Assembly: GCA_024402335.1 (NCBI GenBank)
Contig: JAKSTZ010000021.1
Coordinates: forward strand, 1-37,991
From: Bacteroidales bacterium
Lineage (GTDB): Bacteria > Bacteroidota > Bacteroidia > Bacteroidales > UBA1715
Direction of reading: 5' to 3'
DNA length: 37,991 nt
Made by a program: the position numbers and the translations under genes. The notes beneath the pieces were generated by a model that was given only the letters and a program-made list of their open reading frames with translations, searched no databases and had not been told where the DNA came from. Below, in pieces: positions 11,868 to 37,991 of this stretch (its first letter is position 1; each line of letters begins with the position of its first letter).

Positions 11868-12278
11868 CGTATTCTATCTTAATTATTTTCTTTATAAACT
11901 TCTTTTACCATGCCTTTTTTTATTTAATAGGCAGTTGTGCAAATATATGAAAAAAAACAAAGTATGTACGGTTTTACGATTTTTTTTTGATGGAAAGCTG
12001 ATAAAAACATGTTTTTGAGTTTTTGTGTAGTGTGTATATACTTGATAGTGATTTGTTTATATCTTCTTTTTTGTAACGGAGGTTTTATTCTGTTGTAATC
12101 TGATGCGGTACAAAACATCTTTTGTGAGTGTGTTTATTTAATCTAAGTTATTAACAATTTAGTGTTTTTTGAAAACTATCGTATCTATTATATAGTGTAA
12201 ATTCCTATTTTTGTATGAATATATTGGAATTAAAGTGTATTATTGACAATAAGTGTTTGTTTTTGTAATCTTTTCAAA
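11868..12278. other. Divergent intergenic region between the PorP/SprF-like gene and the giant gene
   Basis: This is 411 bases of very AT-rich sequence with no credible gene. It holds candidate -7 elements facing outward: TATATTTG on the minus strand (11947-11940) and TATTTTTG on the plus strand (12206-12213). Neither has a TTG at the ideal 19-21 bases, so both promoters are tentative. No clear operator or RNA structure was seen. Confidence 0.5.
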
Positions 12279-15200
12279 ATGAAAAAAATATATCTTTTAT
12301 TGTTGTCTTCGCTTGTTTTTTCTCTTTTTGCTGTGGGGCAGGCGACGACTTACAATCCATCACTGTTTATTAAGACTGACATAAATGTGGGTAATCCGGC
12401 ATATCCTTTCCCGCAATTTTTGGAATATAAGGGTGGTGGAAAGTCATTGGCAAAATATAATGCCGAAGGTGTGACACATGCCGATATGGAAAAAACTATG
12501 CGTGAAGCATACGAGATAATGATGCACCGTTGTCGTTATATGGGTGGAACGCATTGTGGTGTTCCGTATATTACGTTTAATCATGGAAGCGTACCTGGTA
12601 ACTATGGGACATTCGTTTCTGAAGGTGATGGATATGCACTTTTAGCTGCTGTGATATTTGCTGACCAAAAGACGTTTAATGGCTTGTATATGTGGATACA
12701 CGATAACCGTATGAGTGGTGTGAAACGTTTTCAGGATGGTCGTGTTCTTCGTGCGGAATTAAATGACTATGCGGGACCGTATTTGGCTGGCTGGCAAAAT
12801 GATGAAACAACAACGAGTATGTCGCCTTCTCACTCGGCTACCGATGGTGATGTGGACATTGCTATGGCAATGTTGATTGCCTATAAACAGTGGGGTGAAT
12901 GGATGGTTCAAGATGGAACTGTTGTGAAGGATTATGCAGGAAATCCTATATCGCTGAAATATGAGGCTCAGCGTGTAATTGGTGCGTTGGTAGATACTTG
13001 TGGACAAATAGATCCGGGAAATGGACAAGTAAGTGGTTGTATTAGTGGGGATATTGGTATAGATGGTTATTGTAAGAAAGGTAATTCGTGGGGTGAATTG
13101 ACTCGTTGGAGATTTTCTGCTGCAGGTCAGGCTGCTTATCCGGGTATGAATGGCCCGTATGGTAGTGGCCCGAATTTGTTGAGTCAGTATGGTACGTTAT
13201 GGATAGATTATGATGCTCCGTCGTATTTTGATGAATTTTATCGTTGGCTAAAAAATGGTGATGGTGTTGATGAAAATAATAAAGATGTAGCTGATTGGGA
13301 GATTAGTCAGTTTAAACGTGCCGCTGCGTCTGGTAATTGGTTGAATAAACAGGCTTATAATCAAGGATATTATGCTTCTATAGGTAATGTTACTGTAGGT
13401 GATCTCGGTGAAAATCCTCAATTCAATGTGTATGTCGATGGTGAAGATTTTCGATATGCATGGCGACATTTAATGGATTATTTGTGGCATGGTGACTCGC
13501 AATACGATTGGGATCCTGTAACACACCAAGTCATTGAGGGACAGGTGAATAATTCTGAACGTTTAATGGGCATTAGACATGCACAATTATTGGAGAATCC
13601 ATCTTCGTCGGGAGAACAAATATGTAGTAAAATGGGTGCGAGTCCGGATCCTGGACAACCTTTGTGGTTTGGTGTTTCGCAAATTCCGCAACAATGGCGT
13701 TTTGATGGTGGGATAACTTCGGTTTATCATACAAATTATTCTGTTGGTGCAGGTGCGCCAGCTGCTGTTATTTCCGAAAATCATTCTTTGTTGTCGGATA
13801 TATATCGTCAATGTGAAATTATGTGGGACGGTAATAATACGGCGGCAAAACTTGATCCCGAAGAACGATATATTGGTAGTACACCAAAATACTTCCATGG
13901 CTGGTTTCGTACATTGGGTATGTTGGTTTGTTCAGGAAACTTGGCTGCTCCTGAAGATATGAAGCCTATCGCCAATATGAAGGTTTATATGTCGGTAGAT
14001 AAGACATACGCGTACGAAGGTGATAAGGTTGATTACACGGTACAATATAGAAACTATGGTTCTTTAGATGCCAAGGATGTGAAGATTCAAACACCGCTCG
14101 ATCCTGATTATACATTTGTAAGTGCTACAAAAGGAGGTAAGTACGATGCGGCAACTCATACTATTACTTGGAATATAGGTACTGTGCCAGGATTTAAAAC
14201 TGGTGGTCTTGCTGCTACTCAAGATTCGGTTGCGTTTACTGTTCGTATTACAAGTTTGGAAAATGCCCGTGTTTGTGAAACGAGTACGATAACAGGTTCC
14301 AATTTTGATGAATGGGTAAGTAACGAATATCCAAATCATGCAACATATACAATGGAACGTAACTGTGTGGATGTATTGGCAAATCGTAGCTTGGTTTTGG
14401 AAAAGAATGCGAATAGAACAGAATTGAATCCACATGATGTGGTTACATTTACGGTAAATTTTGAAAATGTTTCGTCGGAAGATGCTTGGTTAAATGGTGG
14501 CCGTGATAATGTGCGTTTGTCGTACGGTAACTATTACATGCAAGGAAATGCATATCAGTTTTATCATTTATATCGTTTTTGGAATGATTCGTATGAGGCT
14601 TATATAAATATGAATAACTATCGTCTGTCGTATTTTATGTACGATGCGGCGGCACAAGGTTTATATAATGCGGCTTCGAATCCAACAGGATGGACGTTTG
14701 TGGTGGATAATCAAAATGACTTGGATAAATATGGATATAATCCGGAAACAGGTCCAATTACATTTGCATATCAGAAAATTCCGCAAGGGGAAGATGAGTA
14801 TGGTAAGTGGAACCAGCGTTTGATGATTCGTTTTGCCGATGTCTTGATGGCGCCATCTACTCATGTATATGATAAATTGGATTCTCAATATTTGTTGCAC
14901 AAAGGTGTATGGGGACCAGGATTTATACGTGCCCGTTTGGCTTCAAATCCAAATTCTGATTTGTCAACTCGTGTACAGGATGACTGGTCGTTTTCTACGG
15001 ATATAACGGCAAAAACTATTGATGGTCAAGGTGAAACATTTACTTTGGTAACTCCATGTTGGGCTAATTATGACAATCTTGGATATGAAATTGATAATTA
15101 TTCTCGTCATACTTGTAGTTCTCCGACTTCTAAGTTGAAAAACTTTGAACGTGTTTTGGTGGAAGAGTTCGATGGTTATACTTGGCGTCGTATTCAAGGT

Positions 15201-18200
15201 CGTGGACCGCTGCCAGGAAAGGAGGCCTATAATGTAACAATTGTAGATACTATTCCTCTTGAATTAGAATGGAAAGAGTTTGTTACGAAAAAAGCTCTTG
15301 GAATAGAAGCAACATATACGCCGGCTCCAGCGGGTGCTAATTATACAGGTATTGTGAAGTGGACTATTCCTGAAATGTTGGTGGGTGAGAGTGGTAAATT
15401 TGTATATACTTGTGTAGCTAAAGATCTTGGTTGTCCTGAGGTTGGTGATACATATTATATAAATGCAGCTTGGATTTATTCCGATACAGATTCTCCAGAT
15501 TCTTCTGCTGTATCATTAATGACTACTTGTACGGAATTACCTCCATATATTGAACCACAAAATTCATTGTTTAAAACAGCTTCGTCGGAAACAGCTTCGG
15601 TAGGTGATGTTATAACCTATGAAGTGAAGTATGTGAATACTATGGGATCTGTCGTAGATGAAGATTGTTCTTCTTCAACCAATTGGATGGGATTGGGAAA
15701 TAAGGCAATGCCGTCACCTTCGAATGGAAAATTTACATTGAATACTTCTGGTTCTGGTGCATATTTCTTTGGTCCTAAAAATGCCTATGGTGAAAATGGT
15801 TCCATGTATGTAACGTTTAGTGGCTGTAATTCTACTACTCAGGAATTATATTATGTAATGCGCTATGTAAGTGGTACACCTGGTGCGGCTGATTTTAAAG
15901 GTATTGCGATCAAATTGTTCATCAATAAGGATGGTGCTCATAATTTTGGATATGAGTTATATAATAATGGTACATTGGTAAAGAAAGAAGGTTCTTCGTG
16001 GGCCGATGCTATTCAGTTTTCGGGAAGTAGCTCTAATCCGGTATTTAAGTTCGTCTTAAATGATGATCATTTATATATGTATGTAAATGATGAGGAAAAT
16101 GAGTGGACAAGTGTATTGCGAGATTGGAAAGGTTTAAGTTCTGGTGCAGGTTATTGTGGTGTTTATGTGAATAGTAATGGTAACGGTCAAACAGCTCTTG
16201 ATGCGTTCCATAGTGAATTAGATTATGCGTTTGATATTGCTATATCCGATGAATTACCTGATGAACTTACATCTATAGAAAACATTTCTGGTAGTGGAAC
16301 ATATAGTGCAGGAGCAAAGAAAATAACATGGCCTGTTGTTCCTGGACCATTGGCTCCAAATGAGGAAATATCATATACATTTGATGCAACGGTATATGAA
16401 TGTAACTCATATATTAATAACTATGCAGTTGCTTCTGTTTCTGGCCAAGAAGATTTACGTGTGGTTAATTCAGTAAAATGTGGCGCTACTGTTTGTCCTG
16501 ATGCTCCTGTTACGAAAGATATTACCATTTGTAAAGGTACAACGCCTGCGAATTTAACTGCTGTTGGTACAAATTTAAAATGGTACACGACGGCAACGGG
16601 TGGAGTAGGAACAGCTACGCTAAAACCTACAACCGATGAGGCAGGTGTAACTACATATTATGTTTCCCAAACATCTAATGGTTGCGAAAGTGTTCGTGCT
16701 GAATTGGTGGTTACTGTAGTTGAAACAGAAAAACCTATTGTAGCAGAAACGGTTAGTCTTTGTAAAGGTGGCGATGTGTCTGCTTTAACAGCAACTGGTA
16801 CAGATTTGATTTGGTATAATGATAGTAAAGTTGCTTTAGCTGAGGCTCCAACTCCAGATAATTCAGTTGAAGGTTCGGTTACTTATTATGTTACACAAAC
16901 TGTAGATGAATGCGAAAGTGATTTCGCTGAAATAACAGTAACGGTTGGTGCTTTGGAAAAACCGGTGGTGGAGGCAGTTGATTTGTGTCAAGATGAAGTT
17001 GCTTCTGCTTTGTCGGCAATGGCAACGGGTACATTACAATGGTACGAAAGTGCTACGGCTACTGTAGCATTGGCGGCAGCTCCAATACCAGCTTCAACAA
17101 CGGTGGGTGAATCTTATTATTATGTGTCGCAAAAATCTGGTGAATGTGAAAGTGAACGTGCTAAATTAACGGTTACGGTAAAACCAAAACCAACGGCTGA
17201 TATAGCAAGTTCGGCAAGTTCATATTGTGGTGAAACATCTACAATAAAATTGTCGTTAACATCTGATATTGATTTAGATGATGCTACATATTCATGGGTG
17301 AAAGATGGTGAAGATATTGCCGAAACAGCAACGATATTGAATGCTTTGCAAGGTGAATATGTTTGTACTATAGATTTGAATGGTTGTTCTGCTACAACAG
17401 CGGCATTAGAAATCACTCAACATGAAAATCCTGCTTATACAATCACTGGTGGTGGTAGCTATTGTCCGGAATCGTTGACGAAAGATCTTGTGGTTATTAC
17501 TTTCACTGCTGGGGAGGCTCCGTTTACATTTACAGATGCTGTTATTGGTGAGAAAACTTCTGAAACTGAAAGTTATACAATTGAAAATCCACAAGGTGGT
17601 GTGTACCAACTAACTACATTGACAGATGCTAATAATTGTGAAATGACTGGTACAGGTGCAACTGTTGAAGTTGTAGACTTAGAAACACCAGATATCTCAA
17701 TAGCAACTATCCCGGGTATCTGCCCTGGTGATGGAACTATAGATGTGAGTGCGTATGTCACAGCAGAAAATGGTACGCTAACGTACAAAACAGATAAGGG
17801 AACTATTTCTGCTACAGGTGTTCTAAGTGATTTAACTACTTCTGGCACATATACGGTTTCGGTTACTTTGGCAGGAACTGTTGCTCCATATTGTTCAAAT
17901 ACAAAAACGACGGAGATTACTGTATTTGAATTGCCAACAGTTGTTTTGCCTGCAAAATTTGAAGCTTGTTCTGGAGTAGAAATGGAAATTACGCCAACAG
18001 TAACTCCTACTGATGCAACATATACTTATTCTTGGACAGAATCGGAAGTAGGTTTATTGAATAGTTTGTCAGCAGGAACTGTTACTGCGCAATCTTCGGT
18101 GACAGATAAAACTGATTTTGATGTAACCTTGGTGGTAACCGACAAAACAACTAAATGTTCTTCTAGTCAAGCACAAACAGTTGTGACTGTAAATCCTATA

Positions 18201-21200
18201 CCGGTTGCTACAATAGCTATGGATAAAAAAGAATTCTGTAAGTCTGATACAGAAGCGAAAACGATTTCTGCTACGGTAAAGCCTGCCGGTCTAAATGGCT
18301 CTTTTGACTGGACTAATGTAGATGCTGTTTCGGCAACAGTTGCTTCTGCAAAATTTGTTCCTAATGAAAATGCTGCTGGCGATTATGAAATCTCATATAC
18401 GTTCACAAGTGAAGCGAATTGTAAATCAGAACCAGCTTCTCTTACGGTAACGGTATTTGATATCCCAACTATTTCTATTACGCCTAATTATTCTGATGTT
18501 TGTGAAAGTGGTGTAAACAGTTCTGATATTTCTGTAAAGGCATCAAAAACAAATGGAACGTTTAATTATTCGGTAAATAATGGCGGTGTAATTTCTACTG
18601 ATGGCATTATGAAGGTAGCAGATAATGCTGTGGGTACATATACTGTTACATTGGATTATACAGATGAAAATGAATGTAGTGCTGTCGCAACGACAGATGT
18701 GACAATTCATGCCTTGCCAACAGTTACATTTGATGCAACAAATGTAACTTCTGCATGCTATAATTCATCTGAAGTAGTTTTACAAGTTTCTCCGGCACCT
18801 ACAACAGCAAAAGCTTATAGCTTTGTCGGTACTAAAGATGCAACTTCCTCGGTCTTTGCTCCTAAAACAGCCGCCGAAGGTGTGAATACAATTCAGTATT
18901 CATATACGGATGAATTTGGTTGTCAAAATTCCGCAGACTATGAAATTACTGTGGTGAAAGTGCTTGCTCCAACAGTTGATGCTCCTAATCCAAAGACTGT
19001 TACTATAGATGATGGTGGAGTGTTGTTAGACGTAACGACAATGACTGCAACGGCAAATGTTGCTACCGATGTATTGGTTTGGCAAACAGAAACTGGTTCA
19101 AAATTAACCGAAGGTTCTTCTTATACAAGTCCAGAAACTATCGAAGGTGAATATTCTTATTTCGTGAAAGAATATAGAATGATTTCTGGCTCTGCTTGCT
19201 ATAGCGATAGTGTTTTGGCTACATTGGTGTTGTCGAATTGTACGGCGAAATCTCCTATAGTTGAAAACCAAAAATTGTGTGTCGGAGACAATGGAACGGT
19301 AACTTTATCCGCTTCATTTGCAGGTGTTGCTACAGATAAGAAATTGTCTTGGTTTGAAGATAAAGCATTGACTCAATTGTTACAAGATGATACAGATTCA
19401 TATTCTACAATTGTTCAAACTACGAGCGAGGGTGTGTTTACATACTATGTTGCAGAATATGATAACAATAAAGACTGCTGGTCTGTTCCAACAACTGTAA
19501 CAGTTACGATAAATCCTTTGCCTGAAATTGCTATCAACGAAATTGGCTATCTCTGCTATGATGGTGGAAATAAAACAGCGACGGGTCTTATAAATTCTGT
19601 TGCTTCAACTGCAGGAACATGGTCGGTTGTTGATGATAAAATTACTGTAGATGCACAAAGTGGTTCTATCAATCCAACATCGGCAGGAAAAGTTGACGGA
19701 ACTTATACGATACGATATTCATATACTGATAATAATGGTTGTACAAATATGGCAGAAAAAGATTTTTCTGTTGAATATGTTGAAGTTCCTACATCTAAAG
19801 GTTACCTTGGTATAGTTTCTAAACCGGAAGAGGTAGAAGTTACAGTTGAAACTTCGTCTTTGGAGACGGGTTACTCTAATGTGAAGTGGTATTCTGCATT
19901 AGCTTCTGCTTCGGAATCTGCTACTGGTCTTTCTTGGAAAACAGGTGATGATCCTGCTGTAGAACATGTTGCTACCTATTATTTATCACAAGTGGTTAAT
20001 GGCTGCGAAAGTGAAAAAGGTGAGGCTTTGGTGCAAATTGTAAATTGTCCGTTTGCTAAACCGGAGGTTGTTTCTGCTGTTGCTTGTCAGAATGATGTTA
20101 GTTTAGATGATTTACAGGCAAGTCTTCCGGTAAGCACAACTGTTGCTGCCGATAAATGGATTTGGTATGATGCCAATAAAGTTGAATTGTCTTCAGGAAC
20201 AGCTAATACATTTGCTTCGGGTGTATCGACAAGTTTGGCATCTACAACAACTTTCTATGTCGGCTATCTTGCTACAGAACCTACAACACAAGAACAATGT
20301 CCGAGTCCATTAACAGAGGTGACGGTTACAGTAAATCCATTGCCTGAGGTTTCGTTTGTGGCTTCAAAGGAACTTGTTTGTTACGATGAGGGCGATGTAG
20401 TTTGGAAAACAAGTGCAAATGGTGGTGTGTGGACTGTAGATGGTGTAGAACAAAATGGTATGTCTGCCGCTGGAGTATTTAATCCAACAGCATACGGACA
20501 ATCAACATCGACACATACTGTTTCTTATACTTACACAGATACAAGGACATCATGTGTTGCAACAATAGAAAAAGATGTTACGGTACAATATACTCCAGCT
20601 CCTATAGTTAAAGGTCATTCTGCTTTAGTGGAAGATAATCTTCCTGTTGTTGTAACTGCAACTGCAGATGCCGGGGCACAAGTAACATGGTATAATGAAT
20701 TAGGTGCTGTTGTTTCTAAGGCAAATCCTTATACAACCGACGACAATCCATCTGTTGTAACGAACAAGTCATATTTTGCAACACAAACAATCAATACTTG
20801 CGAAAGTGAACAAGCAGAGGCGAAGGTGTCTATTATTCTTTGTCCGGTGCCAAAACCTATAGTTGTACAACCAAGTACAATTTGTAACTATGATGATGTG
20901 CCAGAATTGAGTGCTTCTTTGGGTGAATGGGCTTCTCGTCCAACTACTGTTATGCCAGAAGTATTCAATTTTTACGATGTTGAAGTTGGTGGAACTCCAA
21001 TTTCGGCTAGTCCTTCGGGAACGTTTACTCCTACAATAGATGTAACAAAATCTGCTACTTATACTTATTGGGTTGCCGAATATAATGGAAATATTACTCC
21101 TTCGGCTTGTGAAGGTAAACGTGCGAAAATAACGCTTACAGTTAAGAAGACGGAACTTCCGTCTATTTCTGTTGCAGATGAAACTGTATGTCAAAATATG

Positions 21201-23606
21201 AAGAATCCAACGTTCACGGCGGTAGGAAAGGGCTCTGTACAATGGTATGAATCAGAGCCAACGTCTCCGGATATGTTTGCTGATGCTTCTGGAAATAGAT
21301 TTGTTCCTTCTTTTGATGAGGTTGGAAAACATACAGTTTGGGCAGCACAAGAAATCGATGGCTGTTTGTCGGAAGCTGTTTCTGCTGAATTTGAAATTAT
21401 TGCTATTCCAACAGCTCCTTCGGTTGTCGATGCCTCAATTTGTTATGGCGATGAAAATAAATCTGTTTGTGTAGAGGATAATGTAGGTCAGGTAACGTGG
21501 TATTCTAATGCTGACAAGTCTGGAAAACTTTCCGCTACAACTTGCTATAAACCTATGGTTGAATATGCGGGTGTATATAATTTCTATGCGACACAGACAG
21601 TCTCTGGTTGCGAAAGTGAAGTTACTCAGGCAACATATACTATCACTTCATTACCTTCGGTTCCTATAGTTCAAACAGAAAAGACGTCATGCGACTACGA
21701 TGATGTACATGTGCTTACTGTAAAAGAACAAGCAGGCGTTGAGGTTTCTTGGTATTCTTCTTCTGAATTATCTTCATTGCTTGCCGTTGGAAATACGTAT
21801 ACTCATACAATCCAAGGAAGTGGTAAGCAAACGTATTATGTACGTCAAACGGCAAATGGTTGTACGGGAACATACGTGACTGCTTCATTCACTGTTGTTG
21901 AACGTCCGGAAATGCCAACGGTTACAAACGATATGGTTTGTGTTGGTGAACTTGCAACTGTGGCAACAAACGGTCCAAGGGATTACTGGTATTCCGATGA
22001 AGGTCTGACTATGTTAGAAGGACAAGGAAGTTCTTTCTCGGTTCCTGATGTGGCAGGAAATACAATTTTGTATGTTGTAAGAGAAAAAAATGGTTGTCAT
22101 AGTGTTCCTGCACAAGCAAAAATTTCTGTAATTGCTATTCCAACAGTTTCTATAACTGTTGATGACGAAGATGTTTCGTTGGTAAAACGTTGTATCTACG
22201 AAGATGAGAAAACATTGGTTGCTTCAGTTTCTCCAGAAGCTAATGCTGGAAGTTATGTTTCGTGGTACATTTTCCCGGGTAATGTGACTGTTCAGTCTGA
22301 TTCATTGTTGTTGTCGGACTATGTATCAGTTTCTTCTGGTAATACGTCAAATGTAAACTATACAGTTCGTGCACAATACATGGTGAAAAATCCAACAAAA
22401 GATGCGTATTGTGCAAGTGTAATGGATACGGTAAAGGTTTCTACAAGTGCGAAAGCTCGTAAACCTATAGTTTTGTCTAAAATTATTTGTCAAGGTGAGG
22501 AGATAGAACCATTGACGGCCTTAGGCTCAAAAAATATTACTTGGATGAGTATGAGTGGAATTGAGCCGCCAATAGCAACAGGCCGCCGCTATATTTTCTC
22601 TAAAAACCAAACTTTGGAAGTTGGCGATTATTCCTTCCTTGTATTTGATATGGATACAACAACAGGTTGTAATAGTGACAGCGTTTCTGTAACGATGACT
22701 GTAGCTCCTGCTGCAAAGACGAAGATATTTGGTAGTGATTCTGTTTGTGTTGACAACACCGAGTCTTATTATACGCAATTCAGTGCAAATAGTACATATA
22801 GTTGGTTTGTTACGGGTGATAATGTGAATTATTCAAAAGATGCGTTGTCTCAATCTGTACAATATGTAGATTGGAATAAACCGGGAATAGATACTTTGGT
22901 GGTTTATGAACAAACATGGGCTGGTTGTCAAGGTTTTGATACTTTGATTGTAAAAATTGCAGATAAGCCACGTGCACGTTTCGTGTGGTCATTACCTGGT
23001 TCCTCGAATGTGATTGAGATGATAGATAGCACAGTACAGGATTCTTTGTATAGTGTAAACGAATTAGGTGAACCATACGCAACTGAAATTCCATATACAC
23101 TTCATTGGAATTTTGGTCATATTGGTTCATCTAACGATTATGATTTAGATGTTCCTTACGAAAAACGCCATAAACCAATTATTGAAGGCGATTATGTCTA
23201 TGGTTACAATTGTCCTGTATTAACGGTAGAAAACTCATTTGGTTGTGAAGATTCTTATACCGAATGTGTGTTCATAAATATCACATCTGGCTTGTATATG
23301 CCGACAGCATTTGCTCCGACAAATCCTGCACATAGTGTACGTTATTTCCAACCTAAAGGCTACAATCTAAAAACGTGTCAGGTTTCTGTATTCGATAAAT
23401 GGGGTAACCTTGTTTGGTATTCCGATGCTGTTGAAGATGGCATGTTTGTTGGAAAATGGGATGGTACTTGCAACGGAAAAATGATGGCTTCCGATGTGTA
23501 TATCTGGAAAATGGAAGCAACATTTATCGATGGCCAAATTTGGGAAGGATTTGATGTTGGTGGTGGCAAAAAGTCTAAGTTCGGTAATGTTACATTGTTG
23601 AGGTAA
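12279..23606 (+). CDS. Giant secreted GH8-like glycosidase with DUF11 and Ig-like repeats and T9SS type B sorting domain
   Basis: The product has 3775 residues from the ATG at 12279, which begins a signal peptide (MKKIYLLLLSSLVFSLFAVG); a longer frame from TTG at 12243 is not credible. Residues about 25-555 look like glycoside hydrolase family 8: SEGDGYALLAAVIFAD with E115 as the likely acid, SATDGDVDIAMAMLIA with D189, D191 and D193, and EDFRYAWRHLMDYLWHGD near 389, matching the family DAxRxxWR block with the usual base Asp position apparently Glu (E389). DUF11-type domains start near 561, 702 and 1094; the last two are split by inserted domains. From about 1405 to 3470 there are many ~80-residue Ig-like domains, often with WY near the start and NGCES near the end. 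A PKD-like segment (about 3477-3561) leads to a type B sorting domain (about 3672-3775). It is probably exported by T9SS to the cell surface. The substrate could be beta-glucan, xylan or chitosan. Confidence 0.9.
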   Translation: MKKIYLLLLSSLVFSLFAVGQATTYNPSLFIKTDINVGNPAYPFPQFLEYKGGGKSLAKYNAEGVTHADMEKTMREAYEIMMHRCRYMGGTHCGVPYITFNHGSVPGNYGTFVSEGDGYALLAAVIFADQKTFNGLYMWIHDNRMSGVKRFQDGRVLRAELNDYAGPYLAGWQNDETTTSMSPSHSATDGDVDIAMAMLIAYKQWGEWMVQDGTVVKDYAGNPISLKYEAQRVIGALVDTCGQIDPGNGQVSGCISGDIGIDGYCKKGNSWGELTRWRFSAAGQAAYPGMNGPYGSGPNLLSQYGTLWIDYDAPSYFDEFYRWLKNGDGVDENNKDVADWEISQFKRAAASGNWLNKQAYNQGYYASIGNVTVGDLGENPQFNVYVDGEDFRYAWRHLMDYLWHGDSQYDWDPVTHQVIEGQVNNSERLMGIRHAQLLENPSSSGEQICSKMGASPDPGQPLWFGVSQIPQQWRFDGGITSVYHTNYSVGAGAPAAVISENHSLLSDIYRQCEIMWDGNNTAAKLDPEERYIGSTPKYFHGWFRTLGMLVCSGNLAAPEDMKPIANMKVYMSVDKTYAYEGDKVDYTVQYRNYGSLDAKDVKIQTPLDPDYTFVSATKGGKYDAATHTITWNIGTVPGFKTGGLAATQDSVAFTVRITSLENARVCETSTITGSNFDEWVSNEYPNHATYTMERNCVDVLANRSLVLEKNANRTELNPHDVVTFTVNFENVSSEDAWLNGGRDNVRLSYGNYYMQGNAYQFYHLYRFWNDSYEAYINMNNYRLSYFMYDAAAQGLYNAASNPTGWTFVVDNQNDLDKYGYNPETGPITFAYQKIPQGEDEYGKWNQRLMIRFADVLMAPSTHVYDKLDSQYLLHKGVWGPGFIRARLASNPNSDLSTRVQDDWSFSTDITAKTIDGQGETFTLVTPCWANYDNLGYEIDNYSRHTCSSPTSKLKNFERVLVEEFDGYTWRRIQGRGPLPGKEAYNVTIVDTIPLELEWKEFVTKKALGIEATYTPAPAGANYTGIVKWTIPEMLVGESGKFVYTCVAKDLGCPEVGDTYYINAAWIYSDTDSPDSSAVSLMTTCTELPPYIEPQNSLFKTASSETASVGDVITYEVKYVNTMGSVVDEDCSSSTNWMGLGNKAMPSPSNGKFTLNTSGSGAYFFGPKNAYGENGSMYVTFSGCNSTTQELYYVMRYVSGTPGAADFKGIAIKLFINKDGAHNFGYELYNNGTLVKKEGSSWADAIQFSGSSSNPVFKFVLNDDHLYMYVNDEENEWTSVLRDWKGLSSGAGYCGVYVNSNGNGQTALDAFHSELDYAFDIAISDELPDELTSIENISGSGTYSAGAKKITWPVVPGPLAPNEEISYTFDATVYECNSYINNYAVASVSGQEDLRVVNSVKCGATVCPDAPVTKDITICKGTTPANLTAVGTNLKWYTTATGGVGTATLKPTTDEAGVTTYYVSQTSNGCESVRAELVVTVVETEKPIVAETVSLCKGGDVSALTATGTDLIWYNDSKVALAEAPTPDNSVEGSVTYYVTQTVDECESDFAEITVTVGALEKPVVEAVDLCQDEVASALSAMATGTLQWYESATATVALAAAPIPASTTVGESYYYVSQKSGECESERAKLTVTVKPKPTADIASSASSYCGETSTIKLSLTSDIDLDDATYSWVKDGEDIAETATILNALQGEYVCTIDLNGCSATTAALEITQHENPAYTITGGGSYCPESLTKDLVVITFTAGEAPFTFTDAVIGEKTSETESYTIENPQGGVYQLTTLTDANNCEMTGTGATVEVVDLETPDISIATIPGICPGDGTIDVSAYVTAENGTLTYKTDKGTISATGVLSDLTTSGTYTVSVTLAGTVAPYCSNTKTTEITVFELPTVVLPAKFEACSGVEMEITPTVTPTDATYTYSWTESEVGLLNSLSAGTVTAQSSVTDKTDFDVTLVVTDKTTKCSSSQAQTVVTVNPIPVATIAMDKKEFCKSDTEAKTISATVKPAGLNGSFDWTNVDAVSATVASAKFVPNENAAGDYEISYTFTSEANCKSEPASLTVTVFDIPTISITPNYSDVCESGVNSSDISVKASKTNGTFNYSVNNGGVISTDGIMKVADNAVGTYTVTLDYTDENECSAVATTDVTIHALPTVTFDATNVTSACYNSSEVVLQVSPAPTTAKAYSFVGTKDATSSVFAPKTAAEGVNTIQYSYTDEFGCQNSADYEITVVKVLAPTVDAPNPKTVTIDDGGVLLDVTTMTATANVATDVLVWQTETGSKLTEGSSYTSPETIEGEYSYFVKEYRMISGSACYSDSVLATLVLSNCTAKSPIVENQKLCVGDNGTVTLSASFAGVATDKKLSWFEDKALTQLLQDDTDSYSTIVQTTSEGVFTYYVAEYDNNKDCWSVPTTVTVTINPLPEIAINEIGYLCYDGGNKTATGLINSVASTAGTWSVVDDKITVDAQSGSINPTSAGKVDGTYTIRYSYTDNNGCTNMAEKDFSVEYVEVPTSKGYLGIVSKPEEVEVTVETSSLETGYSNVKWYSALASASESATGLSWKTGDDPAVEHVATYYLSQVVNGCESEKGEALVQIVNCPFAKPEVVSAVACQNDVSLDDLQASLPVSTTVAADKWIWYDANKVELSSGTANTFASGVSTSLASTTTFYVGYLATEPTTQEQCPSPLTEVTVTVNPLPEVSFVASKELVCYDEGDVVWKTSANGGVWTVDGVEQNGMSAAGVFNPTAYGQSTSTHTVSYTYTDTRTSCVATIEKDVTVQYTPAPIVKGHSALVEDNLPVVVTATADAGAQVTWYNELGAVVSKANPYTTDDNPSVVTNKSYFATQTINTCESEQAEAKVSIILCPVPKPIVVQPSTICNYDDVPELSASLGEWASRPTTVMPEVFNFYDVEVGGTPISASPSGTFTPTIDVTKSATYTYWVAEYNGNITPSACEGKRAKITLTVKKTELPSISVADETVCQNMKNPTFTAVGKGSVQWYESEPTSPDMFADASGNRFVPSFDEVGKHTVWAAQEIDGCLSEAVSAEFEIIAIPTAPSVVDASICYGDENKSVCVEDNVGQVTWYSNADKSGKLSATTCYKPMVEYAGVYNFYATQTVSGCESEVTQATYTITSLPSVPIVQTEKTSCDYDDVHVLTVKEQAGVEVSWYSSSELSSLLAVGNTYTHTIQGSGKQTYYVRQTANGCTGTYVTASFTVVERPEMPTVTNDMVCVGELATVATNGPRDYWYSDEGLTMLEGQGSSFSVPDVAGNTILYVVREKNGCHSVPAQAKISVIAIPTVSITVDDEDVSLVKRCIYEDEKTLVASVSPEANAGSYVSWYIFPGNVTVQSDSLLLSDYVSVSSGNTSNVNYTVRAQYMVKNPTKDAYCASVMDTVKVSTSAKARKPIVLSKIICQGEEIEPLTALGSKNITWMSMSGIEPPIATGRRYIFSKNQTLEVGDYSFLVFDMDTTTGCNSDSVSVTMTVAPAAKTKIFGSDSVCVDNTESYYTQFSANSTYSWFVTGDNVNYSKDALSQSVQYVDWNKPGIDTLVVYEQTWAGCQGFDTLIVKIADKPRARFVWSLPGSSNVIEMIDSTVQDSLYSVNELGEPYATEIPYTLHWNFGHIGSSNDYDLDVPYEKRHKPIIEGDYVYGYNCPVLTVENSFGCEDSYTECVFINITSGLYMPTAFAPTNPAHSVRYFQPKGYNLKTCQVSVFDKWGNLVWYSDAVEDGMFVGKWDGTCNGKMMASDVYIWKMEATFIDGQIWEGFDVGGGKKSKFGNVTLLR
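16490..22690 (+). repeat. Array of divergent Ig-like domains within the giant gene
   Basis: The translated region repeats a pattern of a cysteine near the start, a WY or equivalent about 20 residues on, then TYYVSQT-NGCES and a TVTV-like strand, about every 75-95 residues. Copies are divergent in sequence, so this is an old array rather than a recent expansion. The paired cysteines suggest disulphides and a rigid stalk. In Bacteroidota such arrays usually occur between a functional head and a type B sorting domain. Confidence 0.8.
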
Positions 23607-33111: not shown

Positions 33112-34185
33112 TTATTTTGTAACTACCATTTTTGGATAGTTTCCAACAGTTTGTGCTTGTGCTACAGTTCCGTCTGCGTTGTATAATGTTGCAGTGTGTG
33201 CGCTTCCGTAAGGAGTTGCAAGAACCCAGATGTTTTTTGATTGAGAATCAATAGAAACACCATATACGTTGTAGTCTTCTACTACAGTAGTGGCATTGCC
33301 GCCATTTTCGCTCAAGCTAATTAAGCCACCGTCAAGGTAGTAGATAGTTCCATTATTGTATGCCAAAACGTTTTCTCCATAGCAAGAAATTTGGTGGTCA
33401 AAATCTTTTATTGTTGTAGTTGATAAAGAATTTGCATCGATTTTTACTAATGTTGAATTGCTAACAACTTCAGAACCAAGATAATTACCTGCAGCATCGT
33501 AGTTATATACTGATAAACCTTTGCAAAGAACAAGTACATTACCGTTGTTGTCAACTTCAAGGTCGGCAGGAACATCACCTACAGTGATAGTTTTTTCTAC
33601 AGCTAATGTCTTTACGTTTATTACAGTGATAGTGTTGTCGTTAGTGAAACCACCCATATTTGCAACGAATAGTTTCCCGTTAGAAATTACCATTGCGTTT
33701 GGTCCTGCACCTGTTGCAACAGAGTCAACTTTTTCTAATGAAGCGTTGTTTACAACATACACATAGTCGCTACCAAATCCGTTGCCGTTAGTTACGAAGA
33801 TTTCGCTGTCGTTGCGCTTTTCTACATAACGTGGGTACGAAAGACCTTTGATAGTTCCTTCGCTTTCGAATGTGTTAGCGTTTACAACTTCTACTTTTTG
33901 TGAGTTGTTTACAACTATATAAGCTTTGTTACCGATAATTTTCATTGAGTTAGCAACGTCGCCAAGAGGACGGTCGTTTGTCTCTGCGAAAATGTCTTTT
34001 TGTAAGCCATCTTTTGTAATAGCATACACATCTGCATCGTTGCTGCTGAAGTTTCCTTCGCATACTATGAATGTTGCAGAAGAAAATTCTCCTTTTGGTT
34101 TGTTTTCATCATCCTTGTGACAGGAAGTTAGGATTGCTGCACTTGCTAAAAGCAAAGTTGAAAGTCTGAAAATGTTTCTTTTCAT
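33112..34185 (-). CDS. btuG: BtuG-like surface lipoprotein for vitamin B12 capture (beta-propeller)
   Basis: The product has 357 residues. Its lipoprotein signal has lipobox ILTSC with C22, followed by HKDDENK. This acidic pattern resembles the Bacteroidota lipoprotein export signal, so surface display is likely. The remainder is a YncE/DUF5074-like beta-propeller, with repeated blades such as VYAITKDGLQ, KVEVVNANTFESEGTI, NTITVINVKTLAVEKTI and SVYNYDAAGNYLG. In Bacteroides thetaiotaomicron the BtuG lipoprotein binds cobalamin very tightly and hands it to the TonB-dependent receptor BtuB. Here the gene starts 11 bases after a BtuB-like gene and shares its cobalamin riboswitch, which strongly supports the same role. 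Assignment by family alone would be weaker, because propeller lipoproteins have many uses. Confidence 0.85.
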   Translation of the reverse strand: MKRNIFRLSTLLLASAAILTSCHKDDENKPKGEFSSATFIVCEGNFSSNDADVYAITKDGLQKDIFAETNDRPLGDVANSMKIIGNKAYIVVNNSQKVEVVNANTFESEGTIKGLSYPRYVEKRNDSEIFVTNGNGFGSDYVYVVNNASLEKVDSVATGAGPNAMVISNGKLFVANMGGFTNDNTITVINVKTLAVEKTITVGDVPADLEVDNNGNVLVLCKGLSVYNYDAAGNYLGSEVVSNSTLVKIDANSLSTTTIKDFDHQISCYGENVLAYNNGTIYYLDGGLISLSENGGNATTVVEDYNVYGVSIDSQSKNIWVLATPYGSAHTATLYNADGTVAQAQTVGNYPKMVVTK

Positions 34186-34196
34186 TGTTTAAATAT

Positions 34197-36104
34197 TTAG
34201 TTAATAAAAATTTGAATACTGATTTCGTAATTTCGTTTTGGAAGAGGGTAGGAACGAATTTGTTCGTACACTGTATTTGTGATATTATTTATTTTTCCTC
34301 CGATAACCAATTTTGTTTTCTGAAAATGTATGGTATGTTGTATGCCTAAATCGGCTAAAAAGTATGCGTTAAGATTTTTTTCAAGCGCATAGTAACGCTT
34401 GCTTTCATAATGGAAATGTAAACTAAGATTTGTATTCCAAATCTCTATTTGTGGTCGGTATGCTAATTCAAATTTTGGTACATAATATAATTGGTGACCA
34501 ATGTTGTCGCTGTCGTCGGCATCGTACATTTTTGTGATGTGCGATGTGTTTAGATTTATAGCAAAATTATTGCGAATAGTAAATTTGTTAAATGTTTTGT
34601 TGAAATTCGCATTTAGTTCGATTCCTTGTAAAACCGCTTGTGCAGTGTTGTTGGGGTGCCATACGGCTCCTTGTTGCGTCCACATTATCATGTCGTTGAT
34701 AGTAGCATGAAAAATGGTGAAATCTGTTGTCAATTCGGTTGAATCTTTCGCTATGATTTTGTAAGTAAAACCACTTTCTGCCGAAAATCCATGTTCTGGT
34801 TTTAAGTCAGGATTTCCCCATGCTACCCAATACAAATCGTTAAAGGTAGGGGTTCTGTATTTGTTTCCTGCCGTTGCGCGAATTATAAGTTTTTTGTGCA
34901 ATAAAGCATAGTCGGCACCGATGTTTACGATATATGGAATTATGTATTGCGAATTCCATTCCTTGCGAATAGAAAATGAACTGGCAAAGTCGCTTTGTTT
35001 GTATTGAATTGCCGCAATTCCGGCAATGGAGTTTTCTCGTTTTTCGCCACCATAATCGCCGACATTTGCTTTAGCTATTTTTCCTTGGGCCTCAGCACTA
35101 AATGATAGAGTTTTGCATAATCGTTGCCGTAATTGCAGTGAATGCATGTTACTTATGTTTGCTATTTCGCTATAAGTAGTGTACAATTCTGCCGAAGGAG
35201 TGATTTTTTTAGTATATAGTTCATAGTCATTTATATACATGGTCTTGTAAATGACTCTTGTTTTTGGATAAATCATTTGCAATGACGCAACAGCACGGAA
35301 CAGTGAATCGGTTTGTTTTTCGGCATTGTTAGGGTCGCTACCTAATAACGCAGGCAAGTTCGATTTATTTACCTGATACCAAAGAGCACCATGGGCAAAA
35401 ATGTGTTCCGAGAGTTTTATGTGCAGATTTTGTATCGTTCCCCATTGGGTGAATTCGGCATTTTTGCGTCGTTCGTTTTCTAAGCGCACATAATCATAAT
35501 ATTCAAAATCGCTTTCAGATGTTGTATAAAATATTGAACCTGAGTATTGAATGTTTTTGTTTCCGATGGTATATCCAACGTTTGTTTTGTATGTGTCGAA
35601 ACTTGCGGCAGAAAGTAGGCACGATGCTTTTACTTGTTTTCTCCAAACAGGTTTGTTTTTTAGTTCTATGGCGCCGCCGAATGTGCCGTTTCCGAATTGT
35701 GTAGCCGATGCGCTATGGTCAATAGCTATAGTAGAGAAGCCGGAAACAGGTATTTGCGAAATGTTGTTTTCGCCATTTGAATTTGCATTTAACGGAAATC
35801 CTTCCCACGAAATCTGCGTACGTGTAGCACCGCCTCCACGTAGTGAAACAGAGCTGGACATTCCTTCCGTTCCATAATTTTTAAGTATGAGTGCGGTAGA
35901 ATGGGATAGTAAGTCGCTTAATGAACTGCTGAGGGTTGTTTGTAGCGTAAGTGAGTCAAACTCAACTCGTTTTGCACCGTCGTTAAAGAATGACGGTTGT
36001 GCATAAATCGGCACAATGTCAATTTGAACCGTATCGGTTACGGATTGACATAGCACAGGAATAGCTATAAGCAACGAAAAAAGTACACTCAGTTGTCTTT
36101 TCAT
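34197..36104 (-). CDS. btuB: BtuB-like TonB-dependent outer-membrane cobalamin receptor
   Basis: The product has 635 residues. It has a signal peptide (about 1-19, ending VLCQ), then a plug domain (about 50-160) with LLSHSTALILKNYG, SVSLRGGGATRTQISWEGFP and IDHSASATQFGNGTFGGAIEL, which are hallmark TonB-receptor plug blocks. The 22-strand barrel follows, including the typical TFNDLYWVAWGNPDLKPE near 415, and ends in an aromatic-terminated strand (SIQIFIN). It imports substrate across the outer membrane using TonB energy. The cobalamin riboswitch in its 5' leader and the BtuG-like gene 11 bases downstream point to vitamin B12 or related corrinoids. It is small for a SusC-type receptor, consistent with BtuB. 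Confidence 0.92.
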   Translation of the reverse strand: MKRQLSVLFSLLIAIPVLCQSVTDTVQIDIVPIYAQPSFFNDGAKRVEFDSLTLQTTLSSSLSDLLSHSTALILKNYGTEGMSSSVSLRGGGATRTQISWEGFPLNANSNGENNISQIPVSGFSTIAIDHSASATQFGNGTFGGAIELKNKPVWRKQVKASCLLSAASFDTYKTNVGYTIGNKNIQYSGSIFYTTSESDFEYYDYVRLENERRKNAEFTQWGTIQNLHIKLSEHIFAHGALWYQVNKSNLPALLGSDPNNAEKQTDSLFRAVASLQMIYPKTRVIYKTMYINDYELYTKKITPSAELYTTYSEIANISNMHSLQLRQRLCKTLSFSAEAQGKIAKANVGDYGGEKRENSIAGIAAIQYKQSDFASSFSIRKEWNSQYIIPYIVNIGADYALLHKKLIIRATAGNKYRTPTFNDLYWVAWGNPDLKPEHGFSAESGFTYKIIAKDSTELTTDFTIFHATINDMIMWTQQGAVWHPNNTAQAVLQGIELNANFNKTFNKFTIRNNFAINLNTSHITKMYDADDSDNIGHQLYYVPKFELAYRPQIEIWNTNLSLHFHYESKRYYALEKNLNAYFLADLGIQHTIHFQKTKLVIGGKINNITNTVYEQIRSYPLPKRNYEISIQIFIN

Positions 36105-36137
36105 TTGTTACAAAATGATTTTCACGCTCATTTGGTA

Positions 36138-36318
36138 AGTATGTAGATTTGGCAGGTCTTCTGACTTATCCCATTCTATACTGATCTTCCCATTCAAAAG
36201 AACAGTGATGCCCGTTTGTATAGAACTGTATGGAATTAACAGCTGCGGAAACAGTTCAGGTTTTGCACCTGATTCCCTTTTCACATCCACACCAAAGTGT
36301 GTCAGCACCAATTCTGTG
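36138..36318 (-). ncRNA. Cobalamin riboswitch (AdoCbl-type leader)
   Basis: Read on the minus strand the leader contains GGTGCTGAC (around 36309), GGGAATCAGGTGCAAAACCTG (around 36275-36255), CTGTTTCCGCAGCTGT (the conserved core, around 36254-36239), ATCACTG near 36210, and the B12-box part GTCAGAAGACCTGCC (36165-36151). These are the conserved blocks of cobalamin riboswitches in the right order. It ends about 35-45 bases before the BtuB-like ATG at 36104. On ligand binding it would lower expression of the receptor and the BtuG-like lipoprotein. An 85-residue reading frame on the same strand lies wholly within this structure and is not a gene. Confidence 0.95.
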
Positions 36319-36319
36319 A

Positions 36320-36349
36320 CAAATGTAATAAATAGGTGGGGAAATTCAA
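36320..36349 (-). promoter_or_regulatory. Bacteroidota-type promoter of the B12 uptake operon
   Basis: On the minus strand there is TTG (36349-36347), a 19-base spacer and TACATTTG (36327-36320), a perfect fit to TTG-N19-TAnnTTTG. Transcription would start within a few bases of the first conserved riboswitch block, which supports both calls. Confidence 0.75.
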
Positions 36350-36722
36350 GAAAAAATAAATCCAATATTCTCCAACCCGCTCAACAATCCCGTAGGAGTT
36401 GCATCGTTTTTATGATTGAGGATTTTATAGAAAATGAAAGAGTTTCAGGAAAACGACATAGAACTACAAGACTAAAGTGGATAGTTCCGAATAATTATCA
36501 ATTGTCCATTTTATGTTATCAATTATTTTTATATATTTGTATAATCAGTAATCAATTGTGTGGGAATAGCGAGATTAAATAACAATTTGTGCCACAATTA
36601 TTTGGAAAATCCAAATGGTTGTATACACATGTGTAGTGTAACCCTATCTTATTTTGAATTATGGAGTGACTTTTCTGCGCAAGCAGGGGAGTCGCTTTTT
36701 TGTTTAATTTAATTATATAATC
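36350..36722 (+). other. Non-coding gap between the B12 operon and the variable lipoprotein gene
   Basis: No credible gene is seen; a 125-residue plus-strand frame here overlaps the riboswitch and shows no protein-like pattern. The stretch has a short hairpin ATTTGG-AAAAT-CCAAAT (36600-36616), the palindrome ACACATGTGT (36625-36634) and an ATTATCAATT piece near 36497. A terminator-like hairpin lies just before the next gene and is listed separately. A segment near 36385-36415 (CCCGTAGGAGTTGCATCG) looks like a dispersed Bacteroidota intergenic repeat, but I cannot confirm that here. Confidence 0.5.
36664..36701 (+). terminator. Terminator-like hairpin in the leader of the variable lipoprotein gene
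   Basis: AGTGACT and AGTCGCT pair (one G-T) around an inner stem CTGC-GCAA-GCAG with a GCAA tetraloop, followed by six T. The structure ends about 21 bases before the ATG at 36723. No plus-strand gene ends upstream, so it is more likely a leader attenuator or the end of a small RNA than a normal terminator. A minimal frame ATGGAGTGA (36661-36669) overlaps its 5' arm. Confidence 0.6.
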
Positions 36723-37895
36723 ATGAAACATTTCTTGAAAACAATTGCTATGTTCTGCTTAGGTGCAATAACAATGGCGTCGTGTGGTGACGAACCGACA
36801 CCAGAAGCAAAATTGGAGGTTTCGAAGACGGAACTTGGATTTTCTCAGAATGCCAACTCCAAGGTTGTAAGTGTAACAACTACCGGCGTATGGTATGTTG
36901 AGAACAATTCCGACTGGATTAGCATTTCTCCAATGGGCGGCAAGGGTAACGGTGCGATTACGGTTTCGGTTTCCCAAAACGCAAGCGGCCAATCCCGTGA
37001 ATCGTATTTCTCTGTTGCAATAGATTCCGATTCTAAGGTTATCGTTGTTTCACAATCTGCAACGGATACTCCTGAGGAAGAAAATAATAGAGAAGAGACA
37101 GGTGGCAATGAGGAGAACGGAGAAAATGGTGATTATGCAACAGGAGCAGTACAAGGATATTTTTCAGTAAGTGCAAGCAGCAAGGTTGCCTTTTCTCAAG
37201 GCAATTTGCAATATCAGGCAAGTGCAAACACGTGGCGCTTTGCGGAACACCAATATGATATGATAGGTGATGCTAACGAAAACGTTTCTTCTACGTACAG
37301 CGGTTGGATAGACTTGTTCGGTTGGGGGACAAGCGGTTATAACTCAAAATATCCGTATATGACAAGTGGAAATTATATTTTTTATGGTGTTGTAGGTGAT
37401 GAATATGCCGACATAGCAGGAACAAACTACGACTGGGGCGTATATAATAAGATAAGCAACGGTGGAAACGTAGCAGGTCAGTGGAGAACGCTAACGTATG
37501 AAGAATGGGAGTATGTATTAAATAGAAGAACTAATGCGGCTTTATTGAAAGGCTTGGCAACCGTAAAAGGCGTACATGGAATGATATTATTTCCGGATGC
37601 TTGGTCAACTCCAGCAAGTGTAGCTTTCAAAGCAGGTATGAATGGTTTTGAAAATAACATTTACACGGTAAACGAGTGGGCCAAGATGGAAGCGAACGGT
37701 GCAGTTTTTCTTCCTGCTGCTGGGCGCCGCTACGGTACGGACGTGTATAGCGTGGGTTCCCACGGGTACTACTGGTCGTCTACGGCCTTCGACTACGTCG
37801 ACGCGTGCTACGTGAACTTTAACAGCGGCGGTGCCGGCGTGTTCAACTTCGGCCGCAGCGGCGGGCACTCTGTGCGTCTTGTGCGCAGTTTGTAG
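36723..37895 (+). CDS. Surface lipoprotein with BACON and C-type-lectin-like domain; likely DGR target protein
   Basis: The product has 390 residues. Its lipoprotein signal has lipobox MASC with C21, followed by GDEP, which could favour surface export. A BACON-type beta-sandwich covers about residues 31-113, then a Glu/Asn-rich linker (about 114-139). Residues about 144-390 resemble the formylglycine-enzyme/C-type-lectin-like fold seen in Bacteroidota DGR targets: VAFSQGNLQYQ near 155, WIDLFGWGTSGYN near 195, YDWGVYNKISNGG near 238, WRTLTYEEWEYV near 257, then LPAAGRR, YYWSST and SVRLVR at the end. Codon use changes sharply at about residue 335: the last 57 codons are GC-rich with mostly NNC codons. 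This suggests a ligand-binding face diversified by retrohoming. Without diversification it would be an ordinary member of the same fold family. Confidence 0.85.
   Translation: MKHFLKTIAMFCLGAITMASCGDEPTPEAKLEVSKTELGFSQNANSKVVSVTTTGVWYVENNSDWISISPMGGKGNGAITVSVSQNASGQSRESYFSVAIDSDSKVIVVSQSATDTPEEENNREETGGNEENGENGDYATGAVQGYFSVSASSKVAFSQGNLQYQASANTWRFAEHQYDMIGDANENVSSTYSGWIDLFGWGTSGYNSKYPYMTSGNYIFYGVVGDEYADIAGTNYDWGVYNKISNGGNVAGQWRTLTYEEWEYVLNRRTNAALLKGLATVKGVHGMILFPDAWSTPASVAFKAGMNGFENNIYTVNEWAKMEANGAVFLPAAGRRYGTDVYSVGSHGYYWSSTAFDYVDACYVNFNSGGAGVFNFGRSGGHSVRLVRSL
37725..37895 (+). other. Putative DGR variable region (VR)
   Basis: This is the 3' end of the lipoprotein gene, residues about 335-390. 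By hand count, the 59 codons from 37719 to the stop hold 111 G or C of 177 bases (63%), and 32 of the codons end in C, against an AT-rich background with many T- and A-ending codons. The putatively variable positions read cgc, tac, gac, cac, tac, ttc, gac, tac, gtc, gac, tgc, tac, ggc, gcc, ttc, cac and similar. This is what adenine mutagenesis of AAC template codons produces, and NNC codons can never be stops. Fixed framework residues (YWSST, FNSG, SVRLVR) sit between them. The template repeat and reverse transcriptase are not in the window. Confidence 0.75.
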
Positions 37896-37938
37896 AATTT
37901 ACCATTTCCTGGCCAAAGAACAACAAATATAATAAACC

Positions 37939-37991
37939 CCGAAGAATGGCGGTTACCAGCCACGGAGTGGCCCAAAACCGCCAGCCTTCGG
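37939..37991. other. Nested 53-base hairpin downstream of the putative VR, at the window edge
   Basis: Three perfect stems are nested: CCGAAG (37939-37944) with CTTCGG (37986-37991), GGCGGTT (37948-37954) with AACCGCC (37976-37982), and GCCAC (37959-37963) with GTGGC (37967-37971). The loop is GGA, and symmetric internal loops of 3/3 and 4/4 bases separate the stems. It begins 44 bases past the stop codon and may extend past the edge, because CC precedes the outer stem. In the phage BPP-1 DGR a hairpin just after the variable region promotes homing. It could instead be a terminator without a T-run or a structured RNA. Confidence 0.8.

Follow-up and report, generated by a model that had tools for sequence, protein, structure and literature searches.

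The stretch of DNA analysed here (the window, 37,991 nucleotides from a Bacteroidales bacterium) ends at position 37991, 96 bases past the stop codon of a predicted lipoprotein gene, the last codons of which depart in composition from the rest. The locus thus raises the question whether this gene end is the variable repeat (VR) of a diversity-generating retroelement (DGR), in which a reverse transcriptase (RT) copies a template repeat (TR) with errors at adenines, and, if so, where its TR and RT are to be found. An earlier note, made from the letters alone, had proposed such a reading, and its description of the gene end proved accurate: G+C content is 62.5% over the codons at 37725-37892 vs 42.9% before them, 32 of these 56 codons end in C (59 of 334 before), and the framework words YYWSST, FNSG and SVRLVR are found in the protein. 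The variable stretch itself is real as well, although its start had been placed slightly late, as the repeat that aligns with a TR runs from 37707 to 37886. We assigned the following features to the gene and its flank:

36723..37895, + strand: target gene, predicted outer-membrane lipoprotein of 390 aa, with an N-terminal BACON domain and a C-terminal VR-bearing domain
36723..36785, + strand: lipoprotein signal peptide with the lipobox Cys21 at its end, followed by G-D-E (read by eye)
36813..37061, + strand: BACON domain, residues 31-113
37143..37892, + strand: VR-carrying C-terminal domain with the VR at its end, possibly C-type-lectin-like (of the Lcl_C/FISUMP kind)
37707..37886, + strand: VR; mismatches to the TR of the sister genome G006 at 28 of 50 template adenines vs 6 of 127 other bases (Fisher p 1.5e-13)
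37869..37895, + strand: conserved 3' end of the VR including the stop codon, likely the IMH (from sequence comparison)
37896..37905, + strand: AATTTACCAT directly after the stop codon, common to nine VR sites in five genomes (G000, G002, G003, G004 and G006)
37939..37991, + strand: long interrupted hairpin with stems of 6+8+5 bp, truncated where the contig stops; candidate for a DGR target hairpin or for a terminator

The N-terminus of the encoded protein is a lipoprotein-type start (MKHFLKTIAMFCLGAITMASC before GDE), and the G-D-E after Cys21 is reminiscent of the acidic signal by which surface lipoproteins are exported (PMC5080379). Judging from the lipobox and these acidic residues, the protein is probably surface-exposed, where it may bind ligands as an adhesin or receptor. 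An AlphaFold2 model of it reached a mean pLDDT of 84.2. Fold searches with the full model were filled by the BACON domain, the matched rows spanning residues 25-116 only, and a phmmer search of the C-terminal part against the PDB gave a best E-value of 1.6. A match to FISUMP scored 0.073, and the translated TR of a second sister genome, G003, matched Lcl_C (PF07603, of which we take DUF1566 to be a synonym) at 2e-4, both below the cut-off; the C-terminal domain is possibly C-type-lectin-like.

Matches to the VR at E <= 1e-6 were obtained in 7 of the 60 genomes searched; these seven are the genus, the window's own genome (G000) included. A cassette with both TR and RT is present in two of the six genus-mates, namely Bacteroidales bacterium UBA1715 (G006, on contig C8) and RGIG7965 from water buffalo rumen (G003, on contig C87), and runs in both from the end of a target gene through a MutS-like accessory gene (178 to 184 aa) to the TR and the RT. 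The VR in cis differs from the TR at 16 of 46 template adenines and 0 of 122 other bases in G006, and at 28 of 56 and 0 of 115 in G003; in-frame indels add a 9-base loss and a 3-base gain, respectively. In other words, a DGR-like RT, a TR and a VR with mismatches at adenines only, indels apart, adjoin one another in both genomes, and the TR matches the window in its framework and differs from it in an adenine-directed manner, which bears out the VR reading of the earlier note. Both RTs keep YVDD and IGNLTSQ, and a profile built from them found 8ub7 ('Reverse transcriptase') as the nearest solved structure (2.4e-35; next 5.9e-10). We take 8ub7 to be the RT of the BPP-1 DGR, and on that identity the BPP-1 RT likely belongs to the same family. 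The accessory had been expected to be Avd-like; scans of Pfam, PHROGs and NCBIfam gave no Avd match, and the protein appears related to MutS domain I instead and looks MutS-like. All 37 MutS-like accessories keep the motif G-x-F-x-R-A, the Arg of which perhaps sits at the position of the Glu with which MutS reads mismatches. MutS-like proteins are a known type of DGR accessory (PMC10053308).

Across the genus, RT and accessory were found in two of the seven assemblies and are missing from the other five, which are 92-99% complete; relatives of the RT at E <= 1e-30 occur in 28 of 393 sampled genomes of the order. The G006 cassette lies beside rpsL, upstream of it, and the G003 cassette about 1 kb from tRNA-Pro and 1.5 kb from trxB, with trxB of G006 and rpsL of G003 located on contigs other than the cassette contigs. 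The G003 cassette contig begins within its VR, and that of G006 stops within the target gene. The site just upstream of rpsL, where G006 has its DGR cassette, varies in sequence among the genomes examined (L057, L071, L073, L074, L076). A viral origin was considered and dropped, as a scan of viral_contigs gave one distant RT only (30%).

To what extent the window VR follows the adenine rule can be read from its alignment with the G006 TR, the TR of a sister species rather than of its own (GNRNGTDVNNVGSYGNYWSSTANDNNANYLNFNSDNANMNNNNRNNGQSVRLVR in the TR, GRRYGTDVYSVGSHGYYWSSTAFDYVDACYVNFNSGGAGVFNFGRSGGHSVRLVR in the window). Of the 34 mismatches, 28 hit template adenines, where 9.6 would be expected and none of 200,000 permutations reached as many, and six lie on other bases. 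Adenine alone is enriched, C, G and T template positions not being so (p >= 0.98), and with the roles swapped, so that the window serves as template, none of the 23 adenines on the window side is mismatched. As a control, we set the 308-496 bases of the gene upstream of the VR against the G006 orthologue and three paralogues, and saw no such bias in any of the four comparisons (p 0.2 to 0.94). At the level of codons, 16 of the 19 Asn (AAY) codons of the TR are changed in the window, with the third base kept in all 19, just as had been anticipated for NNC codons derived from an AAC-type template. The G006 TR contains no stop-capable codon, and its potential protein diversity is about 10^29. Taken together, the last 60 codons match the TR of a sister DGR save mainly at template adenines, and we estimate a probability of about 0.93 that they were written in trans by the error-prone RT of an element of this kind. 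Because of this TR/VR relation to the sister cassettes, and because the VR family is dispersed (see below), the window gene looks like a remote target. In the homing reaction that we picture, TR RNA from a cassette of target, MutS-like gene, TR and RT would be reverse transcribed and template adenines would be copied to any base, turning AAY codons into NNY; the cDNA would then take the place of the VR, with the conserved GTGCGTCTTGTGCGC end as its anchor and possibly with aid from the hairpin that follows the stop codon. The C-terminal binding face would thereby be altered, with the BACON domain and the framework parts constant.

Positions 33112-37991 of the window are orthologous to a locus on contig C27 of G006 (93.8% identical). 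The VRs of the two orthologues differ at 28 of 50 template-adenine positions and 5 of 127 others, and where both are mutated they share the derived base in 9 of 16 cases, with 6.9 expected. These values fit a rewriting of the VR in at least one lineage, and probably in both, after the window and G006 split. In keeping with this, two pairs of sister-species alleles from protein records, neither from the window's species, differ at 0 of 74 upstream residues vs 25 of 56 VR residues, and at 3 of 329 framework vs 5 of 24 VR residues. Within the window gene, the part at 37012-37611 is 14-16% diverged from the G006 orthologue vs 0.3-8.3% before it, a step that suggests sequence exchange. The G006 locus also bears on the expectation that a cassette would follow to the right of 37991: it continues with other genes, a KilA-N-like ORF and uvrA (names by eye), with no RT within the approximately 5 kb read beyond it and the sole related RT of G006 on C8, and a cassette just past 37991 is therefore not expected. 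Elsewhere in the window, a cobalamin riboswitch (RF00174, 89 bits, 36134-36327, - strand), which makes the overlapping ORF calls probably spurious, stands ahead of a TonB receptor (34197-36104) and a YncE-like propeller (33112-34185, match below cut-off), a BtuB/BtuG-like unit. A 3787-aa ORF at 12243-23606 (+) has seven Ig_7 stretches, DUF11 and a GH8 match, and is adjoined by a PorP/SprF gene at 10698-11867 (-).

The end of the VR reads GTGCGCAGTTTGTAGAAT in the window and has an altered counterpart, GTGCGCAGTTGTAGCAC, in the G006 TR. The hairpin downstream has a folding energy of -32.1 kcal/mol (z -4.9); over the nine sites, two of them in G004, where the inner C6 copy lies inside a longer ORF and is not counted, z ranges from -1.7 to -8.2, C13 of G000 being the weakest. 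Its stem starts 43 bases past the stop codon, farther than in phage DGRs, where, according to PMC3240598, a hairpin or cruciform lies 4-34 bp after the VR and BPP-1 homing is efficient only with a hairpin there. When the 99 bases that begin at the window's stop codon were searched for across the genus at the DNA level, eight matches came up at E <= 0.001. VRs stand immediately before those on C14 and C13 of G000, C5 and C27 (both strands) of G006 and C6 of G004; a 27-base match on C7 of G004 follows a VR-like copy without adenine bias, and a 28-base match on C9 of G006 falls outside the hairpin; in G000, the element was matched only behind the two adenine-biased VRs. When five of the nine sites were aligned, 92% of the cells paired and 4 of 18 pairs were changed on both sides (0 of 500 shuffles as high), a covariation support that is modest because the related sequences are few. 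The hairpin is also a candidate terminator. The presence of AATTTACCAT and the hairpin element does not divide real VRs from relics: the AATTTACC start that accompanies it is missing from 26 of the 35 adenine-biased copies.

These 35 copies come from a census of the genus, for which loci were collected by DNA similarity to the window VR (E <= 1e-6) and, within the window's own genome, from protein matches. The input was 43 loci with a motif match in a wider pass; eight loci gave no census row, having no motif match or duplicating another locus, the two TRs were set aside, and more diverged copies were missed. Each copy was scored against whichever TR gave fewer non-adenine mismatches. The census holds 46 VR-like copies in seven genomes, 35 of which are adenine-biased (p < 1e-4), and biased copies are present in all seven (biased/total: G000 2/5, G001 7/7, G002 7/8, G003 7/11, G004 3/5, G005 6/6, G006 3/4). 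There are thus 3 to 7 adenine-biased tails per genome in six genomes and 2 in G000, and the 11 copies without bias include 3 of the 5 of G000. Non-adenine mismatches range from 0% to about 23% among the biased copies, and amount to 3.9 and 4.7% in the biased VRs on C13 and C14 of G000. VR length varies in frame from 54 to 67 residues among the biased VRs (n = 34, excluding the truncated copy on G003 C87); we do not regard such changes as new, since slippage by threes in AAC repeats has already been proposed (PMC12875486). On C6 of G004, two tandem VR-like ends share one long ORF (L060:5456-8611); of these, the inner is decayed (30/127 non-adenine mismatches) and the terminal less so (8/127).

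The G000 assembly comprises 2.48 Mb in 86 contigs and is 94% complete. A DNA search of it with the VR recovered paralogues on C13 (75%, strong) and C12 (66%, weaker), further short matches having E > 0.8, and there was no template among these matches. Searching for the TR as a pattern, with as many as 3 mismatches allowed, recovers the TRs of G003 and G006 and gave no match in G000 (one TR-like match on C66 of G004 was an unrelated sequence). Nothing in G000 corresponds to the RT and accessory of the sister cassettes except a distant RT on C15. An RVT_1 profile found two RTs in G000, on C15 and C28. The latter we discarded as a source: it lies in an ORF of 571 aa next to a helicase-like gene and looks by eye like another kind of RT. 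The former belongs to a second DGR, of the prophage type (L009:7418-10996, - strand), with an RT of 347 aa and a target ORF of 728 aa, the TR and VR of which are identical at 104 of 123 positions and differ mostly at template adenines by eye. Since it has an RT, a TR and a target, this DGR might be thought to write the window VR in trans; its TR, however, is unrelated to the window VR, with no significant blastn match, and we give this reading practically no credence. A matching TR together with a DGR RT in the same genome, as the earlier note had asked for, was thus found in the sister genomes and is absent from the assembly of the window's own, which we do not class as holding a complete DGR of this family. 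The absence touches the refuting condition set in the earlier note, but an assembly 94% complete in 86 contigs may simply lack them. It is also very improbable that ordinary paralogue divergence, gene conversion or positive selection produced the variable end without reverse transcription. The family is indeed large, with 7,389 relatives among 8,000 scored candidates, and the divergence step at 37012-37611 suggests exchange, but none of this accounts for mismatches enriched at template adenines alone (p 1.5e-13) in a gene with an unbiased upstream part.

If the VR was written by a DGR, its cassette may since have been lost, leaving the sequence frozen, or it may be present and unassembled, with the VR diversified now. 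For the former, to which we assign slightly less than even odds, speaks the absence of the TR, a closely related RT and the accessory from G000. The cassette neighbours of G006 and G003, rpsL and trxB, are both assembled there, on C2 and C6, and such an RT was found neither beside them nor elsewhere. Likewise, G001 (99% complete, 30 contigs) has 7 adenine-biased VRs and no RT, and such targets are known from Treponema denticola isolates that lack the RT (PMC4891356). A frozen VR sits less well with the intact IMH-like end, hairpin and reading frame, and its decay is not visible, because its 6/127 non-adenine mismatches are about the inter-orthologue level of 5/127. The fragmentation into 86 contigs, and the end of the window contig so close behind the VR gene, also weigh against a loss. 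An unassembled cassette comes similarly near to an even chance. The cassette contigs of G003 and G006 and the window contig all break in or near VR genes, as if the repeats break assemblies, and the low non-adenine mismatch of the C13 and C14 VRs speaks for it as well; against it, G000 holds no direct trace of RT, accessory or TR, and the best 120 protein matches include no RT at 81%-100% identity to that of G006. As the protein entries were clustered at 90%, a close RT could hide in the cluster of 5 to which the G006 RT belongs.

The DGR reading places the window gene among systems that resemble it in part. The LdtA DGR of Legionella is reportedly a cellular DGR acting on a surface lipoprotein, and is alike in both respects, a likeness by description rather than by sequence. 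A lipoprotein target in Legionella is cited in PMC8144416 and PMC10907252. The Treponema denticola DGR (TvpA and others) has the same arrangement, with lipoprotein targets, several of them remote from the cassette, template changes mainly at Asn codons, and leftovers in isolates without RT and TR (PMC4891356), so that remote lipoprotein targets and leftovers are of a kind already known. It differs in phylum, in its accessory (HRDC, between TR and RT, whereas here it is MutS-like and upstream of the TR) and in its targets, the one here bearing a BACON domain. The BPP-1 DGR shares adenine mutagenesis, the IMH, a hairpin behind the VR (a candidate one here) and the order accessory-TR-RT (PMC3240598, PMC12875486), but has Avd in place of the MutS-like protein and a hairpin of 7-10 bp with a GRNA loop, shorter than the one here, which internal loops interrupt; the target here is a cellular lipoprotein, and targets are dispersed. 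Bacteroides gut DGRs belong to the same order and likewise have surface targets first made as lipoproteins, which are the tip pilins of type V pili (Macadangdang et al. 2024, cited in PMC12632263) rather than BACON lipoproteins of rumen relatives. DGRs with DUF1566 targets also have several target genes per TR (PMC6642488), and the TR translation here resembles Lcl_C. In the present genus, however, the targets are spread across contigs and for the most part have no cassette close by.

The analysis adds a rumen-associated Bacteroidales genus, with a MutS-like accessory, in which a single DGR family appears to have rewritten many protein tails. We can also picture, though we consider it rather unlikely, that the genus keeps a standing, dispersed array of surface proteins that is served in trans by one small cassette which comes and goes and changes place; the targets would stay primed, and gain or loss of the cassette would start or stop their diversification. 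The mismatched duplex of TR and VR would, in this picture, be protected or guided by the MutS-like partner. Cassettes with such a partner, putative in its role, are supplied by G003 and G006, and the gradient of non-adenine mismatches among the targets could date the last rewriting of each in a clock-like manner. With the RT in 2 of 7 assemblies and adenine-biased targets in 7 of 7, a DGR search centred on the RT would miss most of the targets in this genus.
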